NCBI GenBank assembly: GCA_003112755.1
Contig: BFBT01000003.1
Location: 1 to 64,000 of the forward strand
DNA: 64,000 nt
Source: Lawsonibacter asaccharolyticus
GTDB lineage: Bacteria; Bacillota; Clostridia; Oscillospirales; Oscillospiraceae
Direction: 5' to 3'
The notes beneath the pieces are model-generated. The model had not been told where the DNA came from, made no database searches, and was given only the letters and a program-made list of their open reading frames with translations. Shown piece by piece: positions 33,776-64,000 of the stretch. The position numbers and the translations under genes are program-made. The stretch's first letter is position 1. Each line of letters begins with the position of its first letter.

Positions 33776-33854
33776 CATTGAAAATTGGATGCTATTTTCT
33801 CGCAAACCATTGAAAGAACTGGTATTTCAAGGGTTTTTATGTTATAATAAAGAT

Positions 33855-35444
33855 ATGAAAAACGAAGTGAACATTACCACAAGCAGCACAGAAATGATGA
33901 CCATTTCCCGTGCGGAATATGAGTCTCTAAAGGCGGAACGAGACGAACTGAACCAGAAGCTGGACTGGCTGATGGAACAGGTGCGTCTTGCCAAAAAGAA
34001 GGTCTATGGGACATCCTCCGAGCAGACGAAGGAGGAGTTGGTTGGCCAGCTGAGTTTCATGTTTGATGAGACGGAAGCATGGCTGTCTACCAGGAGGACT
34101 GCCACGAGGGAAACCAGGGTTGCCGCTCATACCCGGCAGAAGCGATCCTCCCGTGTGGAGGAGGTTCTGCCTGAGAACATCCCTGTTGAGGTGGTGGAGC
34201 ACCGCGTCCCGGAGTCTGAACGTAACTGTCCTGAATGCGGTACGCTCATGACAGAGATTGGGACCGAGGTGCGCCGTACTCTGGTAATGGTCCCTGCCCA
34301 GGTGAAGATCCGGGAAGATGTTTATTTTACATACGCCTGCCAGAACTGCAAGCAGACAGGGACGGAAACACCTATCCTGAAAGCCCCCAAAGAGCCTCCC
34401 CTGATTTCGGGCAGCTATGCCTCCCCGGAGGCTGTGGCCCATATCATGGTGCAGAAGTTTGTGATGTACGCTCCGCTGTACCGGCAGGAACAGGAATGGA
34501 ATCGTGCTGGGGTGATGCTCTCCCGGCAGACGATGAGCAACTGGGTGCTGCGGGTGGCGGAGGACTGGCTGCGGCCCATCTATGACCACTTGCACCGGCA
34601 GTTGCTTCAGCGCGAGGTTCTCCATGCGGATGAAACAACCTTGCAGGTGCTGAAGTTGGAAGGGCAGACAGCCAGGAGCAAGTGCTATATGTGGCTGTAC
34701 CGGACTGGCGGAGACGCCGAGCATCCCATAGTTCTGTATGAGTACCAGCAGAACCGGAAGGCGGAGAATGCCGAAGCATTCCTCAAGGGCTTTACGGGCT
34801 GGCTCCATGCGGATGGGTATTCCGGCTACCACCGATTGCCGGAGAACATCCGGGTGGTTGGCTGCTGGGCGCATCTGCGGCGAAAGTTTGACGAGGCGGT
34901 GAACGCCTTGCCAAAAGAGCAGCAGGTTGGCTGCACGGCGTTGGAGGGACTGCAATACTGTAATATTCTTTTCGCCATTGAAAAGGAACTAGCGGATCTG
35001 CCGCCGGAAGAACGTTATATCCAGCGTCTGGCTCGGTCCAAGCCGGTGATGGACGCTTTGTTGGCATGGGCGGAAACGAAGACCGCCCCGCCCAAGTCCT
35101 CTTTGGGAAAGGCGCTGTACTATCTGCGGGAGCAGTGGCCATATCTGAAACGCTTTTTAGAGGACGGGCGTCTGGAAATAAGCAACAACCGGGCGGAGCG
35201 GAGCATTAAACCCTTTGTGATGGGGCGGAAGAACTGGCTGTTCGCCAATACGGAGGGCGGTGCTCAGAGCAGCGCCATTGTTTACAGTCTGATTGAAACG
35301 GCCAGGGAGAATAACCTTGATCCATACCGATATTTGGTTCATGTGTTTTCCAAGGCACCCGGACTGGCAGTTACCGACAAGAACTGGGCCGCAAAGCTGC
35401 TCCCGGAAAATATTCCCCCAGAATGTTGTATTACAAAGAAATAG
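33855..35444 (+). CDS. tnpC: IS66 transposase TnpC, copy 1
   Basis: 529 residues from MKNEVNITTSS; an upstream in-frame ATG at 33789 overlaps tnpB-proximal sequence. An N-terminal leucine-zipper-like helix, a Cys-x2-Cys zinc finger (NCPECGTLM and ACQNCKQTG), then the DDE core with HADETTLQVLKLEG, LHADGYSGYHRL and SNNRAERSIKPFVMGRKNWL. Full length and apparently functional. Confidence 0.93.
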   Translation: MKNEVNITTSSTEMMTISRAEYESLKAERDELNQKLDWLMEQVRLAKKKVYGTSSEQTKEELVGQLSFMFDETEAWLSTRRTATRETRVAAHTRQKRSSRVEEVLPENIPVEVVEHRVPESERNCPECGTLMTEIGTEVRRTLVMVPAQVKIREDVYFTYACQNCKQTGTETPILKAPKEPPLISGSYASPEAVAHIMVQKFVMYAPLYRQEQEWNRAGVMLSRQTMSNWVLRVAEDWLRPIYDHLHRQLLQREVLHADETTLQVLKLEGQTARSKCYMWLYRTGGDAEHPIVLYEYQQNRKAENAEAFLKGFTGWLHADGYSGYHRLPENIRVVGCWAHLRRKFDEAVNALPKEQQVGCTALEGLQYCNILFAIEKELADLPPEERYIQRLARSKPVMDALLAWAETKTAPPKSSLGKALYYLREQWPYLKRFLEDGRLEISNNRAERSIKPFVMGRKNWLFANTEGGAQSSAIVYSLIETARENNLDPYRYLVHVFSKAPGLAVTDKNWAAKLLPENIPPECCITKK

Positions 35445-35620
35445 AATATATCTTGTGAAAGCGGGATTGCCATTGGTAAGCCCGCTTTTGCTTTTTCCAA
35501 TAGGGATTATTGGCACCGCGGTGTGGAAAAACAAGGAAGTTTTGTCCTGTTTTATCCCATGTCGTCTATCTGTCTGATCTTGTCATATTATGGAACTATC
35601 TTATGAAAGGTGGTTCTTTT

Positions 35621-36307
35621 ATGGCAAACACAGAAATTTTCCTGCGCAATATTTTTGGTACAACTCGTCCGAATATTCGTCCACTCGTTCTTGCTCTAAA
35701 CATTACCAATGACCTCTTATTTGAACAGCATATCTCCATGTCCGATATTAAAGCAACGAAACATATTTACCCCGATGTTGCCAGACTGCTTCATAAAAAG
35801 CCTGAAACTGTGTACAAGAGCGTGATACGCTTGGCGCATCGCTGCTGGGATGCACTTGTGGAACAAGATTTGGTTCTTTCTTATCTGGGACGCTCTATGA
35901 AGCAGGAACCAGATCCCAGCGTTTTTATTACCTATCTAGCTGTCTACATTCAATCCGATATCCCGTTTTTTGAATTCATTGAGCGTGACCCTGGTTTTCT
36001 TTTCCGAGACTCGCCTGACATATTCGGAATGTCTGATATTCCGCCTGAATCGACTACAAAGTTGCTGCTGCGCAACAAACCGCTCCTGGTTTCTCAAGCA
36101 ATGGCTTTTACATCCCCGGCCGGATTGACCACATTTCCTGTCTGTCCCGCGTGTATGGCCACTTTGGAACGTGAAGGCCAGAACTTTTGTGACCATTGCG
36201 GACAACGCCTGGATTGGCGTTGGTACAAGCACGCCCAGATCATCTACCCCGGGCAAAAATCAGCACTCAATATTCTTGACAAGGATGATGTTCTAATCTC
36301 CACTTAA
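35621..36307 (+). CDS. IS66 passenger gene: Spo0A-C-like domain plus zinc ribbon, copy 1
   Basis: 228 residues from MANTEIFLRNIFGTTRPNIR, after GAAAGGTGGTTCTTTT. The N-terminal part contains SDIKATKHIYPDVARLLHKK and PETVYKSVIRLAHRCWDALV, which follows the Spo0A C-terminal DNA-binding pattern (T-K-x-L-Y-P-x-(I/V)-A ... V-E-R-x-I-R-x-A-I-x-x-A-W). The C-terminus has a zinc-ribbon pair (CPACMATLE and CDHCGQRLDW). It lies inside the IS66 ends and is repeated in copy 2, so it is part of the mobile unit. The function is unknown; regulation of transposition or of the host is possible. Confidence 0.65.
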   Translation: MANTEIFLRNIFGTTRPNIRPLVLALNITNDLLFEQHISMSDIKATKHIYPDVARLLHKKPETVYKSVIRLAHRCWDALVEQDLVLSYLGRSMKQEPDPSVFITYLAVYIQSDIPFFEFIERDPGFLFRDSPDIFGMSDIPPESTTKLLLRNKPLLVSQAMAFTSPAGLTTFPVCPACMATLEREGQNFCDHCGQRLDWRWYKHAQIIYPGQKSALNILDKDDVLIST

Positions 36308-40961: not shown

Positions 40962-41040
40962 CATTGAAAATTGGATGCTATTTTCTCGCAAACCATTGAA
41001 AGAACTGGTATTTCAAGGGTTTTTATGTTATAATAAAGAT

Positions 41041-42630
41041 ATGAAAAACGAAGTGAACATTACCACAAGCAGCACAGAAATGATGACCATTTCCCGTGCG
41101 GAATATGAGTCTCTAAAGGCGGAACGAGACGAACTGAACCAGAAGCTGGACTGGCTGATGGAACAGGTGCGTCTTGCCAAAAAGAAGGTCTATGGGACAT
41201 CCTCCGAGCAGACGAAGGAGGAGTTGGTTGGCCAGCTGAGTTTCATGTTTGATGAGACGGAAGCATGGCTGTCTACCAGGAGGACTGCCACGAGGGAAAC
41301 CAGGGTTGCCGCTCATACCCGGCAGAAGCGATCCTCCCGTGTGGAGGAGGTTCTGCCTGAGAACATCCCTGTTGAGGTGGTGGAGCACCGCGTCCCGGAG
41401 TCTGAACGTAACTGTCCTGAATGCGGTACGCTCATGACAGAGATTGGGACCGAGGTGCGCCGTACTCTGGTAATGGTCCCTGCCCAGGTGAAGATCCGGG
41501 AAGATGTTTATTTTACATACGCCTGCCAGAACTGCAAGCAGACAGGGACGGAAACACCTATCCTGAAAGCCCCCAAAGAGCCTCCCCTGATTTCGGGCAG
41601 CTATGCCTCCCCGGAGGCTGTGGCCCATATCATGGTGCAGAAGTTTGTGATGTACGCTCCGCTGTACCGGCAGGAACAGGAATGGAATCGTGCTGGGGTG
41701 ATGCTCTCCCGGCAGACGATGAGCAACTGGGTGCTGCGGGTGGCGGAGGACTGGCTGCGGCCCATCTATGACCACTTGCACCGGCAGTTGCTTCAGCGCG
41801 AGGTTCTCCATGCGGATGAAACAACCTTGCAGGTGCTGAAGTTGGAAGGGCAGACAGCCAGGAGCAAGTGCTATATGTGGCTGTACCGGACTGGCGGAGA
41901 CGCCGAGCATCCCATAGTTCTGTATGAGTACCAGCAGAACCGGAAGGCGGAGAATGCCGAAGCATTCCTCAAGGGCTTTACGGGCTGGCTCCATGCGGAT
42001 GGGTATTCCGGCTACCACCGATTGCCGGAGAACATCCGGGTGGTTGGCTGCTGGGCGCATCTGCGGCGAAAGTTTGACGAGGCGGTGAACGCCTTGCCAA
42101 AAGAGCAGCAGGTTGGCTGCACGGCGTTGGAGGGACTGCAATACTGTAATATTCTTTTCGCCATTGAAAAGGAACTAGCGGATCTGCCGCCGGAAGAACG
42201 TTATATCCAGCGTCTGGCTCGGTCCAAGCCGGTGATGGACGCTTTGTTGGCATGGGCGGAAACGAAGACCGCCCCGCCCAAGTCCTCTTTGGGAAAGGCG
42301 CTGTACTATCTGCGGGAGCAGTGGCCATATCTGAAACGCTTTTTAGAGGACGGGCGTCTGGAAATAAGCAACAACCGGGCGGAGCGGAGCATTAAACCCT
42401 TTGTGATGGGGCGGAAGAACTGGCTGTTCGCCAATACGGAGGGCGGTGCTCAGAGCAGCGCCATTGTTTACAGTCTGATTGAAACGGCCAGGGAGAATAA
42501 CCTTGATCCATACCGATATTTGGTTCATGTGTTTTCCAAGGCACCCGGACTGGCAGTTACCGACAAGAACTGGGCCGCAAAGCTGCTCCCGGAAAATATT
42601 CCCCCAGAATGTTGTATTACAAAGAAATAG
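41041..42630 (+). CDS. tnpC: IS66 transposase TnpC, copy 2
   Basis: Identical as read to copy 1; full DDE core and zinc finger. A TATAATAAAGAT stretch immediately upstream of the start may act as an internal promoter or weak ribosome site in both copies. Confidence 0.93.
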   Translation: MKNEVNITTSSTEMMTISRAEYESLKAERDELNQKLDWLMEQVRLAKKKVYGTSSEQTKEELVGQLSFMFDETEAWLSTRRTATRETRVAAHTRQKRSSRVEEVLPENIPVEVVEHRVPESERNCPECGTLMTEIGTEVRRTLVMVPAQVKIREDVYFTYACQNCKQTGTETPILKAPKEPPLISGSYASPEAVAHIMVQKFVMYAPLYRQEQEWNRAGVMLSRQTMSNWVLRVAEDWLRPIYDHLHRQLLQREVLHADETTLQVLKLEGQTARSKCYMWLYRTGGDAEHPIVLYEYQQNRKAENAEAFLKGFTGWLHADGYSGYHRLPENIRVVGCWAHLRRKFDEAVNALPKEQQVGCTALEGLQYCNILFAIEKELADLPPEERYIQRLARSKPVMDALLAWAETKTAPPKSSLGKALYYLREQWPYLKRFLEDGRLEISNNRAERSIKPFVMGRKNWLFANTEGGAQSSAIVYSLIETARENNLDPYRYLVHVFSKAPGLAVTDKNWAAKLLPENIPPECCITKK

Positions 42631-42806
42631 AATATATCTTGTGAAAGCGGGATTGCCATTGGTAAGCCCGCTTTTGCTTTTTCCAATAGGGATTATTGGC
42701 ACCGCGGTGTGGAAAAACAAGGAAGTTTTGTCCTGTTTTATCCCATGTCGTCTATCTGTCTGATCTTGTCATATTATGGAACTATCTTATGAAAGGTGGT
42801 TCTTTT

Positions 42807-43493
42807 ATGGCAAACACAGAAATTTTCCTGCGCAATATTTTTGGTACAACTCGTCCGAATATTCGTCCACTCGTTCTTGCTCTAAACATTACCAATGACC
42901 TCTTATTTGAACAGCATATCTCCATGTCCGATATTAAAGCAACGAAACATATTTACCCCGATGTTGCCAGACTGCTTCATAAAAAGCCTGAAACTGTGTA
43001 CAAGAGCGTGATACGCTTGGCGCATCGCTGCTGGGATGCACTTGTGGAACAAGATTTGGTTCTTTCTTATCTGGGACGCTCTATGAAGCAGGAACCAGAT
43101 CCCAGCGTTTTTATTACCTATCTAGCTGTCTACATTCAATCCGATATCCCGTTTTTTGAATTCATTGAGCGTGACCCTGGTTTTCTTTTCCGAGACTCGC
43201 CTGACATATTCGGAATGTCTGATATTCCGCCTGAATCGACTACAAAGTTGCTGCTGCGCAACAAACCGCTCCTGGTTTCTCAAGCAATGGCTTTTACATC
43301 CCCGGCCGGATTGACCACATTTCCTGTCTGTCCCGCGTGTATGGCCACTTTGGAACGTGAAGGCCAGAACTTTTGTGACCATTGCGGACAACGCCTGGAT
43401 TGGCGTTGGTACAAGCACGCCCAGATCATCTACCCCGGGCAAAAATCAGCACTCAATATTCTTGACAAGGATGATGTTCTAATCTCCACTTAA
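42807..43493 (+). CDS. IS66 passenger gene: Spo0A-C-like domain plus zinc ribbon, copy 2
   Basis: Second copy of the 228-residue passenger with YPDVARLLHKKPETVYKSVI and the CPAC/CDHC pair. Full conservation between copies shows the passenger moves with the element. Confidence 0.65.
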   Translation: MANTEIFLRNIFGTTRPNIRPLVLALNITNDLLFEQHISMSDIKATKHIYPDVARLLHKKPETVYKSVIRLAHRCWDALVEQDLVLSYLGRSMKQEPDPSVFITYLAVYIQSDIPFFEFIERDPGFLFRDSPDIFGMSDIPPESTTKLLLRNKPLLVSQAMAFTSPAGLTTFPVCPACMATLEREGQNFCDHCGQRLDWRWYKHAQIIYPGQKSALNILDKDDVLIST

Positions 43494-62225: not shown

Positions 62226-62628
62226 ATGAAAAACATCTATCAGTTTGCGGCATGGATTTGTGACGAAACAGACGGAATCGATGACGAAAAATTTATGGCC
62301 GCGGCGTGGATTCTCTATGCTTGGATGCGTCGGGAGGTCATCGACTACATTCCGCTCCCGAAGCTTCCGGCAACTGTGAGCGGCTCCACGAAAAAAGAAC
62401 GGTCTGTTGCGGTGATTTACCAGCCGGAGGAACACTTTGTCACACTTCGTTCCTGTTCTCGATAAGACATGTCTGGAGTTTATCAAATGCGGCAGTCAAT
62501 TCCGCTCGGACTTGGTGTTTGGTGCCATATGGCTGAAAAACACTCATTTCAAAAAGACAATCTGCGCTTTTAAGTCGGCTCCGTTTTATAATGAAAGCAT
62601 CCCATTCCAAAGGAAGGATGCGTTATGA
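62226..62628 (+). CDS. Small protein translationally coupled to the EEP-RT gene, probably frameshifted
   Basis: Start MKNIYQFAAWICDETDGIDD after AGGGAGAAAACGCCA. The frame as read ends at 62465 (HFVTLRSCSR). One base away, an open frame continues with DKTCLEFIKCGSQFRSDLVF and AIWLKNTHFKKTI to a stop at 62626-62628 that overlaps the next start as ATGA. A single indel near 62445 would give one protein of about 133 residues. No family recognised; the coupling suggests it works with the reverse transcriptase protein. Confidence 0.45.
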
Positions 62629-64000
62629 AAATCATGTCCTGGAATGTAAACGGCTTGGCTGCCTGCAAGCGCAAGGGATTTCTGCGGGTACTGGCCCACT
62701 CCAGGGCGGACATATTCTGCTGCCAGGAGATCAAATCCCGCTGTCCGCTCTCCACCCCGGGGTATTTCCAGTTCTGGAATCCGGCCCAGTGCCCCGGCTA
62801 CTCCGGCACGCTGACGCTCTCCCGCAGGGAGCCGCTTTCCGTCCACTACGGCATGGGAATCAGGGAGTTTGACGAGGAGGGCCGTCTGATCGTTCTGGAA
62901 TACGGCGGCTTCTATGTCGTGAACGTCTATGTCCCCAACTCTCAGAGCGGCCTTGCCCGGCTGGACTACCGGACGGCGTGGGATGAAGCCCTGCTTTCTT
63001 TTTTGAAGGGTCTGGACAAGCCCGTGGTCCTATGCGGGGACTTCAATGTGGCCCGGGATTTTATCGACGTTTACCCTGAAAATATACGGAATACCCCCGA
63101 ACTGCCGGGCTTTCAGTCCCAGGAGCGCGAAGGGATGGAGCGGCTGCTCTCTCTTGGCCTGACCGATGTGTTCCGCGCTTGGTATCCGCAGGTGGAGAGG
63201 GCCTATACCTGGTGGTCCGCACGGCTCAACAAGAGGCAGGAAAACCGGGGGTGGCGGCTGGACTACTTCCTGGTTTCGGACGCGCTGCTGTCCTCCGTCC
63301 GCGGGATCACGCACCATACGGACATCCTTGGTTCGGACCACTGCCCGATTTCCCTGATTTTGCAGCCTGCTGCCCCACGGAAGGAGCTGTCTGACGAGGA
63401 TTTGGCGGCCATGTGGCGGGGACTGAACTGGGAGGCGCTGGAGGACCAGCTGCTGGAGCTGCAGCAGAGTCTGGCCCGAGTCACGTTCGCCGGCCACTGG
63501 AATCACGTGAAGCAGCTCCAAAAAGAGCTGGTCCGTTCTCTGGCCGCGAAAGCCTTGGCGGTGCGCCATGTCGTCCAGCGGGATTCAGAGCCTGGGGTGG
63601 ACCATGTGCGGTGGACCACAGACGCGGAAAAGATGCGCGCCGCGCTCTCCCTGACCTCCAAAGGCTACCACGCCAAGCCCTACCGCCGCATTGTGGTCAT
63701 GGATGGCGGCAAGGAACGGCGGATCAACGTGCCCACCGCCTACGACAAGGCGATGCAGGCCCTGTATGCGTTCTCTCTTGACCCGGTGGCGGAATCCGTG
63801 GCGGACAAAAAATCATTTGCCTTTCGGAAGGGCCGCTCCGCTTTTGACGCCCACGCCTGCATTTGCCGGACTCTGGAAAATGCGGACGCCCCGGACTGGA
63901 TCGTCTGCGCGGATGTCCGGGCCTGCTATGATACCTTGAGCCAGGACTGGCTGATGGCGAACATCCCCATGGACAAAAAGGTGCTGTGGGAGTTCCTGAA
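62625..64000 (+). CDS. Exonuclease III/AP endonuclease-like (EEP) domain fused to a group II-intron-like reverse transcriptase, runs off the window
   Basis: One uninterrupted frame of 458 codons, start ATG 62625 after AAGGAAGGA, no stop before the edge. Residues 1-250 are a complete EEP nuclease: MSWNVNGL, FCCQEIKS, VVNVYVPNSQSG, CGDFNVA (Asp139, Asn141), TWWSAR ... GWRLDYFLVSDAL and GSDHCPISL (Asp238, His239), all catalytic residues present. From about residue 268 an RT N-terminal domain follows (LNWEALEDQLLELQQSL, AAKALAVRHVVQRD, PGVDHVRW). Then RT blocks: RRINVPTAYDKAMQAL (367 on), FAFRKGRSAFDAH and ADVRACYD (Asp430, block 3/A). The YADD box lies beyond the edge. The order nuclease-then-RT is that of eukaryotic LINE retrotransposons. 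Confidence 0.85.
   Translation, partial: MKIMSWNVNGLAACKRKGFLRVLAHSRADIFCCQEIKSRCPLSTPGYFQFWNPAQCPGYSGTLTLSRREPLSVHYGMGIREFDEEGRLIVLEYGGFYVVNVYVPNSQSGLARLDYRTAWDEALLSFLKGLDKPVVLCGDFNVARDFIDVYPENIRNTPELPGFQSQEREGMERLLSLGLTDVFRAWYPQVERAYTWWSARLNKRQENRGWRLDYFLVSDALLSSVRGITHHTDILGSDHCPISLILQPAAPRKELSDEDLAAMWRGLNWEALEDQLLELQQSLARVTFAGHWNHVKQLQKELVRSLAAKALAVRHVVQRDSEPGVDHVRWTTDAEKMRAALSLTSKGYHAKPYRRIVVMDGGKERRINVPTAYDKAMQALYAFSLDPVAESVADKKSFAFRKGRSAFDAHACICRTLENADAPDWIVCADVRACYDTLSQDWLMANIPMDKKVLWEFL

Follow-up and report, generated by a model that had tools for sequence, protein, structure and literature searches.

The locus at the right end of the window (the whole stretch of DNA analysed, 64,000 nt) raises the question of whether an EEP-type nuclease and a bacterial reverse transcriptase (RT) are encoded in one gene and, if so, what such an enzyme may do.

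A nuclease and a reverse transcriptase in one frame

The frame that starts at 62625 is open to the window end at 64000, so that the window holds 458 of its 948 codons (62625..64000, + strand), and on the longer contig G000:C3 it reaches a stop at 65471. The complete gene is one ORF (contig 62625-65471, + strand; L004:7626-10472) encoding 948 aa, without internal stop or frameshift, and the window and contig sequences agree across their overlap. The single frame joining both domains, as proposed in the sequence-only reading, is thus confirmed; a stop or frameshift at residues 250-270, named beforehand as the refuting result, was looked for and is absent. The longest open stretch in 300 shuffles of the gene's bases was 294 codons, the codon-position GC is alike across the three parts of the gene, and full-length homologues share its layout; therefore, a chance origin of the 948-codon frame is excluded. 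By eye, a ribosome-binding-site-like AAGGAAGGA precedes the ATG (62610..62618, + strand) and a TATAAT hexamer is located at 62587-62592, where the promoter scan called no promoter. A putative small ORF of 63 aa (62437..62628, + strand) ends with a stop that overlaps the fusion start codon (TTATGA).

Based on the Pfam analysis of the 948-aa protein, we identified Exo_endo_phos (residues 4-239), RVT_N (264-343; 63414..63653, + strand), RVT_1 (362-564) and GIIM (587-663), and no Cas1, HEPN, nitrilase or primase domain. The ExoA/APE1-type ExoIII domain spans residues 1-250 (62625..63374, + strand) and includes the active-site residues N7, E35, Y102, D139, N141, D213, D238 and H239; the roles of this N, E, Y, D, N, D, D, H set are known from ExoIII/APE1. 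Only the first part of RVT_1 lies within the window (63708..64000, + strand), with the motif A Asp430 at 63912-63914. Extension past 64000 had been expected to show a YADD motif, a thumb and a C-terminal domain; the contig does encode GIIM, a CxxC...HxxC finger after it (C738/C741/H771/C774) and a further C-terminal region, in which a DUF7662 match (812-863) is slightly below the Pfam cut-off, but the RT active-site motif is FADD (517-520) rather than YADD. NCBIfam assigned the N-terminus to exodeoxyribonuclease III (250 bits) and the middle to group II RT/maturase (226 bits, short of the cut-off of 300). The catalytically complete EEP nuclease is therefore borne out and refined to the ExoA/APE1 type, and the Pfam and NCBIfam assignments agree with the proposed RT_N and RVT_1 of group II-intron style. 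The arrangement of the domains is uncertain in the structure model (pTM 0.54). With the C-terminal piece as query, 14 proteins of 90-268 aa were retrieved, mostly C-terminal fragments akin by identity to the family's own, and a literature search for DUF7662 found no paper. Elsewhere in the host genome, a different contig carries a separate ExoIII-like match (51% identity).

A rare family with conserved active sites

Using the nuclease region as query, we obtained 708 database matches among proteins of 521-1659 aa. Among the matches listed, 117 of 120 carry the nuclease together with RVT_1, with a median length of 947, while P0067, P0069 and P0070 have the nuclease only. Both domains are thus present in nearly every listed match, and the fusion is borne out as a real, conserved group with complete active sites. 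The three exceptions are 565-aa proteins in which the family's nuclease is followed by a different C-terminal half; in P0067, Pfam identified the nuclease only. In an alignment of 136 proteins, the eight nuclease residues are invariant in all covering rows (125-128 rows), D430 and D519 are each kept in 132 and D520 in 135, and the finger residues C738, C741, H771 and C774 are kept in 124-127 rows. Position 517 is F in 97 and Y in 24 of the 136 rows, and position 518 is A in 120. The closest full pair, L106/L107, has a dN of 0.127 and a dN/dS of approximately 0.04, a ratio that rests on a near-saturated dS.

Family members were found in 4 of 394 order-level genomes (G000, G368, G431, G370), in 5 of 400 family-level genomes (G000, G006, G1148, G431, G838), in 6 of 64 genus genomes (G000, G021, G053, G006, G005, G452) and, at E <= 1e-130, in the own genome only of the class sample (1/391); these counts are lower bounds, since the large order-, family- and class-level searches scored two candidates per genome. 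A family fragment is present in G003, beyond the six genus carriers, and we take the remaining genome-search matches as group II-type RTs. Given its rarity at the order level, the fusion gene is no general repair gene. The source names among the protein matches include Flavonifractor plautii, uncultured Dysosmobacter and Rikenellaceae MAGs. An assembly artefact was rejected, as the family was found in many sources. No record among 28 in the phage collection, and none among the best 5000 in the plasmid collection, covers 80% of the RT-to-end query, and no DNA match was found in plasmids. A contig scan with patterns inside the nuclease domain drew stand-alone ExoIIIs, and its 80 matches listed cover residues 1 to about 267 only.

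Incomplete copies were also observed. In L186:1547-2607 and L120:1238-1942, an internal deletion brings the nuclease start near the C-terminal region, L185:8699-10890 is a 3'-truncated family copy, and the family ORF in L243:617-1576 ends near residue 319.

Fused and split members

In the tree of the nuclease halves, 31 members, fused as well as split, are separated by one branch (support 99) from 48 stand-alone ExoIIIs. Three split loci (L108, L109 and L137) show both genes, which overlap by 4 nt, as GTGA or ATGA. The fused and split states require at least two changes on the RT tree. The possibility that the two domains are always separate genes, raised earlier as a refuting outcome, is contradicted: fused members prevail among those listed, and split members exist alongside them. 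The 50 matches listed by VIA-align cover the nuclease domain only, and the viral-library fold search added nothing specific.

Ancestry of the reverse transcriptase

Among solved RTs, the group II maturase 6me0 is nearest, with an alignment across residues 262-777 (297 bits). The RT tree proposed as a check was built with 60 rows; a single branch (SH-aLRT 100) divides the 35 family members from the rest, and they sit on a long stem next to the group II intron RTs. With Rfam at gathering thresholds, none of the 18 family loci, of which several have a single flank, gave group II RNA, whereas 11 of the 13 sister-type RT loci searched did (L139, L140, L170, L171, L172, L146, L181, L188, L190, L191 and L192, with L173 and L174 negative; Fisher p 9e-7). 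Around the window gene, there was none at E up to 1. Since the positive controls worked, a group II intron remnant was rejected. Judging from these comparisons, the RT descends from group II intron RTs, and the intron RNA has been lost.

In the finger region, the 6me0 stretch EIHHILP...NLVLIHANCHKQ aligns with ELVEIVQ...NMAYIHRRCAYD of the window protein, so that the zinc ligands are kept and the HNH histidine pair is gone. On this alignment, the ancestral HNH is read as degenerate, with its histidine pair replaced. Several sister intron RTs likewise have no histidine pair; the loss therefore probably predates the fusion, and the idea that the ExoIII replaced the HNH is a guess.

Maturases bind their own intron RNA, which, together with the long branch of the family away from any intron RT and the absence of group II RNA from the 18 family loci, argues against a protein that works in trans as a maturase or mobility helper on resident group II introns, lending nicking or ExoIII activity to HNH-inactive ones. 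Such a role is very improbable, although the protein retains the RT and GIIM, the HNH is degenerate in sister introns of related hosts, and a host ExoIII is reported to aid the group II intron RmInt1 (PMC5010178).

Genomic neighbourhood

Of the 13 family loci for which 0.6 kb or more of upstream sequence is available, 8 have a YpsA-type SLOG gene upstream, on the same strand and at most 3.5 kb away (L135, L136, L138, L106, L107, L108, L120 and L243), a count that includes L120 with its ORF cut by the contig end, the related elements L106 and L107, and L243, which was added later with the same phmmer queries. The window's own locus (L004), L109, L137, L183 and L184 have none. For comparison, such a gene was found at none of 21 other RT loci and at one of 92 loci with a stand-alone ExoIII; these controls were scored on both sides (over the whole locus for ExoIII) and were often cut by contig ends or limited to 1.5 kb flanks. 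With L106 and L107 collapsed to one, the family count is 7 of 12 (p 2e-4). SLOG genes are common in themselves, with 1-7 per genome in eight genomes.

Serine recombinase genes are found within 6 kb at L004, L135, L106, L107, L109 and L182, ParB at L135, L106 and L107, and a relaxase at L136 and L183. Taken together, such genes occur at 8 of the 18 family loci, many of which are cut by contig ends, versus 6 of 21 control RT loci; in view of this control count, the neighbours back mobile-element carriage in general terms only. The window locus has no SLOG gene, and its serine recombinases begin 2.5 kb downstream. The order SLOG, fusion, ParB, serine recombinases is common to L135, L106 and L107, whose fusion proteins belong to different subclades. 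Based on this kept position and on the recombinase neighbours, the fusion gene looks like resident cargo of integrative elements, unlike a free transposon.

Other features of the neighbourhoods were as follows. A NYN-domain gene (Pfam) at L135:4854-6368 has a 75% identical match over 961 bp at L136:58-1062, both next to family members. A pemK RNA motif lies near four family loci (L004:11734-11814, which is contig 66733-66813; L108:4974-5038; L138:1037-1129; L182:5472-5534). At L193:6444-7762, a 411-aa ORF, RT-like by eye and with an Rfam RT-18 RNA directly upstream, is located on the strand opposite to a family member, about 380 bp past its end. Within the window, the ORF pairs at 33789-36307 and 40975-43493 (551 + 265 aa) agree in length and in their first 60 residues, and they are probably two copies of one insertion sequence.

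A structured block upstream of some family loci

A scan of the flanks of homologues for conserved RNA, suggested in the sequence-only reading, identified a structured, inverted-repeat-rich block of about 175 nt upstream of three family loci (L135:6425-6600; L186:2765-2940, - strand; L120:543-722). Its folding z-scores are -5.0 in L135 and -3.3 in L120, and eight pairs have changes on both sides among the three sequences. The L120 block had no Rfam match at E up to 5, and the covariance model of the block gave nothing at E below 0.5 when run on the remaining 15 family loci searched; a weak match (E 0.57) lies 3 kb upstream in L136. Further sites are L233:4999-5176, L234:5008-5184, L235:4996-5173 (- strand), L238:534-655 and L240:4966-5084. 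The flanks differ past the 3' end of the block. In L233-L235, a SLOG gene ends 25 bp before it; in L238 and L240, an ORF, HNH homing-type by Pfam in L238, starts 104 bp downstream. The block is perhaps the end of a mobile unit. At the genus level, 15 of 17 sites are away from the fusion gene (one of these is on the same contig as a family fragment, at a distance of about 29 kb), and several of them adjoin a SLOG gene or an HNH homing-type ORF. The block is therefore no obligate partner of the fusion gene, and it was rejected as a dedicated template RNA. Because no conserved RNA fit to be such a template was found, an RNA-copying role is unproven.

The same lack of a conserved template RNA bears on the proposal that the fusion is a defence RT directed against phages or other elements, which would make or process cDNA on infection and have the SLOG protein as its sensor. 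The linkage to SLOG would agree with such a role, as SLOG domains are predicted sensors in conflict systems, one of them in Thoeris ThsA (PMC7272460, PMC6459960), and a type I methyltransferase adjoins L108. Nevertheless, PADLOC on ten neighbour proteins identified nothing but this methyltransferase and a weak CARF family at L138. Additionally, the RT itself matches general RT and group II-type models best and UG/DRT models less well, with PADLOC scores of 113 bits for the generic RT, 79 for Cas1_IIIb and 67 for RT_UG4, and NCBIfam scores of 226 bits for group II RT versus 27 for Drt3a. We consider a defence role doubtful.

Mobility of the fusion gene

The sequence-only reading had compared the architecture with that of APE-type LINE elements, and this parallel is supported. 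Human LINE-1 ORF2p and other APE-type LINEs have an APE-type nuclease followed by the RT in one ORF, as does the fusion family, and LINEs have a Cys-rich part after the RT to which that of the fusion protein can be likened. L1 ORF2p (9hdr) was the one of 50 Foldseek matches listed whose alignment (903 columns) spans both domains, at 15% identity and with no whole-chain superposition (rmsd 26.4). The fusion RT differs in coming from bacterial group II introns and in showing no sign of dispersed copies, and we infer that the family and LINEs are of separate origin.

The shared domain order could mean that the gene is itself a self-mobile element of this kind, whose nuclease nicks the target and whose RT copies the element's own mRNA into it. 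In agreement with this, the homology of L135 and L186 stops 12 bp past the stop codon, and that of L184 and L185 at the start codon, a boundary 43 bp from a contig end. On the other hand, no genome with two intact copies was seen, and the six carriers among the 64 genus genomes, where every candidate was scored, have one copy each; draft assemblies can collapse repeats, and most large searches scored two candidates per genome. The sole second copy found, L185 of G370, lacks its 3' side, whereas target-primed insertion is expected to truncate the 5' side. The earlier proposal to look for target duplications gave nothing by eye, with neither a duplication nor a tail noticed in the flanks, and the gene position is constant in three related elements, between SLOG and ParB/recombinase genes. 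The role of a self-mobile retroelement proposed at the outset is thus disfavoured, and we regard it as unlikely.

Proposed function

ExoA and APE1 cut abasic sites and trim blocked 3' ends, leaving a 3'-OH, and group II RTs use DNA 3' ends as primers, with RNA or DNA as template. By homology to these enzymes, we propose that the family comprises intron-free, group II-derived RTs fused to an ExoA/APE1-type nuclease, predicted to open DNA and to prime synthesis from the exposed 3' end, a proposal to which we give about even credence and in which all catalytic steps are inferred. The nuclease would incise abasic sites or clean blocked 3' ends, and the RT, held near by the fusion or by overlapping genes, would extend the resulting 3'-OH with either DNA or RNA as template; removal of RNA from hybrids is a further activity that the ExoIII fold could have. 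Owing to the tether of nuclease and RT, one protein could open a lesion or target and start synthesis on the spot, the nuclease taking the place of the degenerate HNH as primer maker. The gene would be cargo of an integrative element and would help the element or the host to repair lesions or to contend with other elements, and the upstream SLOG protein perhaps controls the fusion enzyme.

Two reported cases point toward nuclease-primed RT synthesis. RmInt1, a group II intron whose protein lacks an endonuclease, needs the host ExoIII XthA4 for efficient retrohoming (PMC5010178), and the intron-free group II-like RT G2L4 repairs double-strand breaks (PMC12337344). Pointing against cooperation of ExoIII and RT, Ll.LtrB retrohoming is up eight-fold in an E. 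coli xthA mutant, so that ExoIII can hinder (reported in PMC5010178). The lesion-repair reading fits with the role of YpsA, which guards B. subtilis against oxidative stress (PMC6459960).

Relation to known systems

The group II intron-encoded proteins, of which the 6me0/8fli maturase is the nearest solved, have an RVT_N-like part, RT, GIIM and CxxC...HxxC finger in the same order; in contrast, the fusion family has no intron RNA at the 18 loci and no HNH histidine pair, with an N-terminal ExoIII and a C-terminal extension added. G2L4 is likewise an intron-free descendant of group II RTs, but it has a YIDD active site and no D/En region (PMC12337344), whereas the fusion family has mostly FADD or YADD, the finger and the fused nuclease. 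RmInt1 with host XthA4 is also a case of an En-less group II RT working with an ExoIII (PMC5010178), although there the proteins are unlinked and the intron RNA is present. The ExoA/XthA/APE1 AP endonucleases are stand-alone, whereas the family nucleases group apart and are fused or gene-coupled to an RT. The DRT/UG/Abi and RT-Cas1 RTs are also bacterial RTs in non-intron roles, but the fusion RT matches the named UG/DRT and Cas1 profiles more weakly.

That no EEP-RT family had been described is in line with our search of the open-access literature (subscription papers being outside its scope), in which no account of an ExoIII-RT family was found among the matches listed; the available portions of the RT surveys PMC4244168 and PMC8934634 and of the review PMC8867640 contain no mention of one. 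What we rate as new is the nuclease partner of this group II-derived RT, and the parallel with LINE-1 is striking.

LINEs are generally traced back to group II introns, with an AP endonuclease acquired in the course of their evolution. Tentatively, the family may be an independent bacterial counterpart of LINE-1, in which a group II RT shed its ribozyme, lost the HNH and captured an AP endonuclease, becoming a self-sufficient, SLOG-gated cut-and-copy enzyme of integrative elements; we consider this possible, with the balance of probability against it. The family looks like a bacterial parallel to LINE evolution, in which intron-bearing sisters are still living, split and fused forms both occur, and the enzyme is a single protein amenable to purification and assay. 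If both activities work in cis, the fusion would be a new way for bacteria to prime DNA synthesis, and a candidate tool for writing DNA from a nick.
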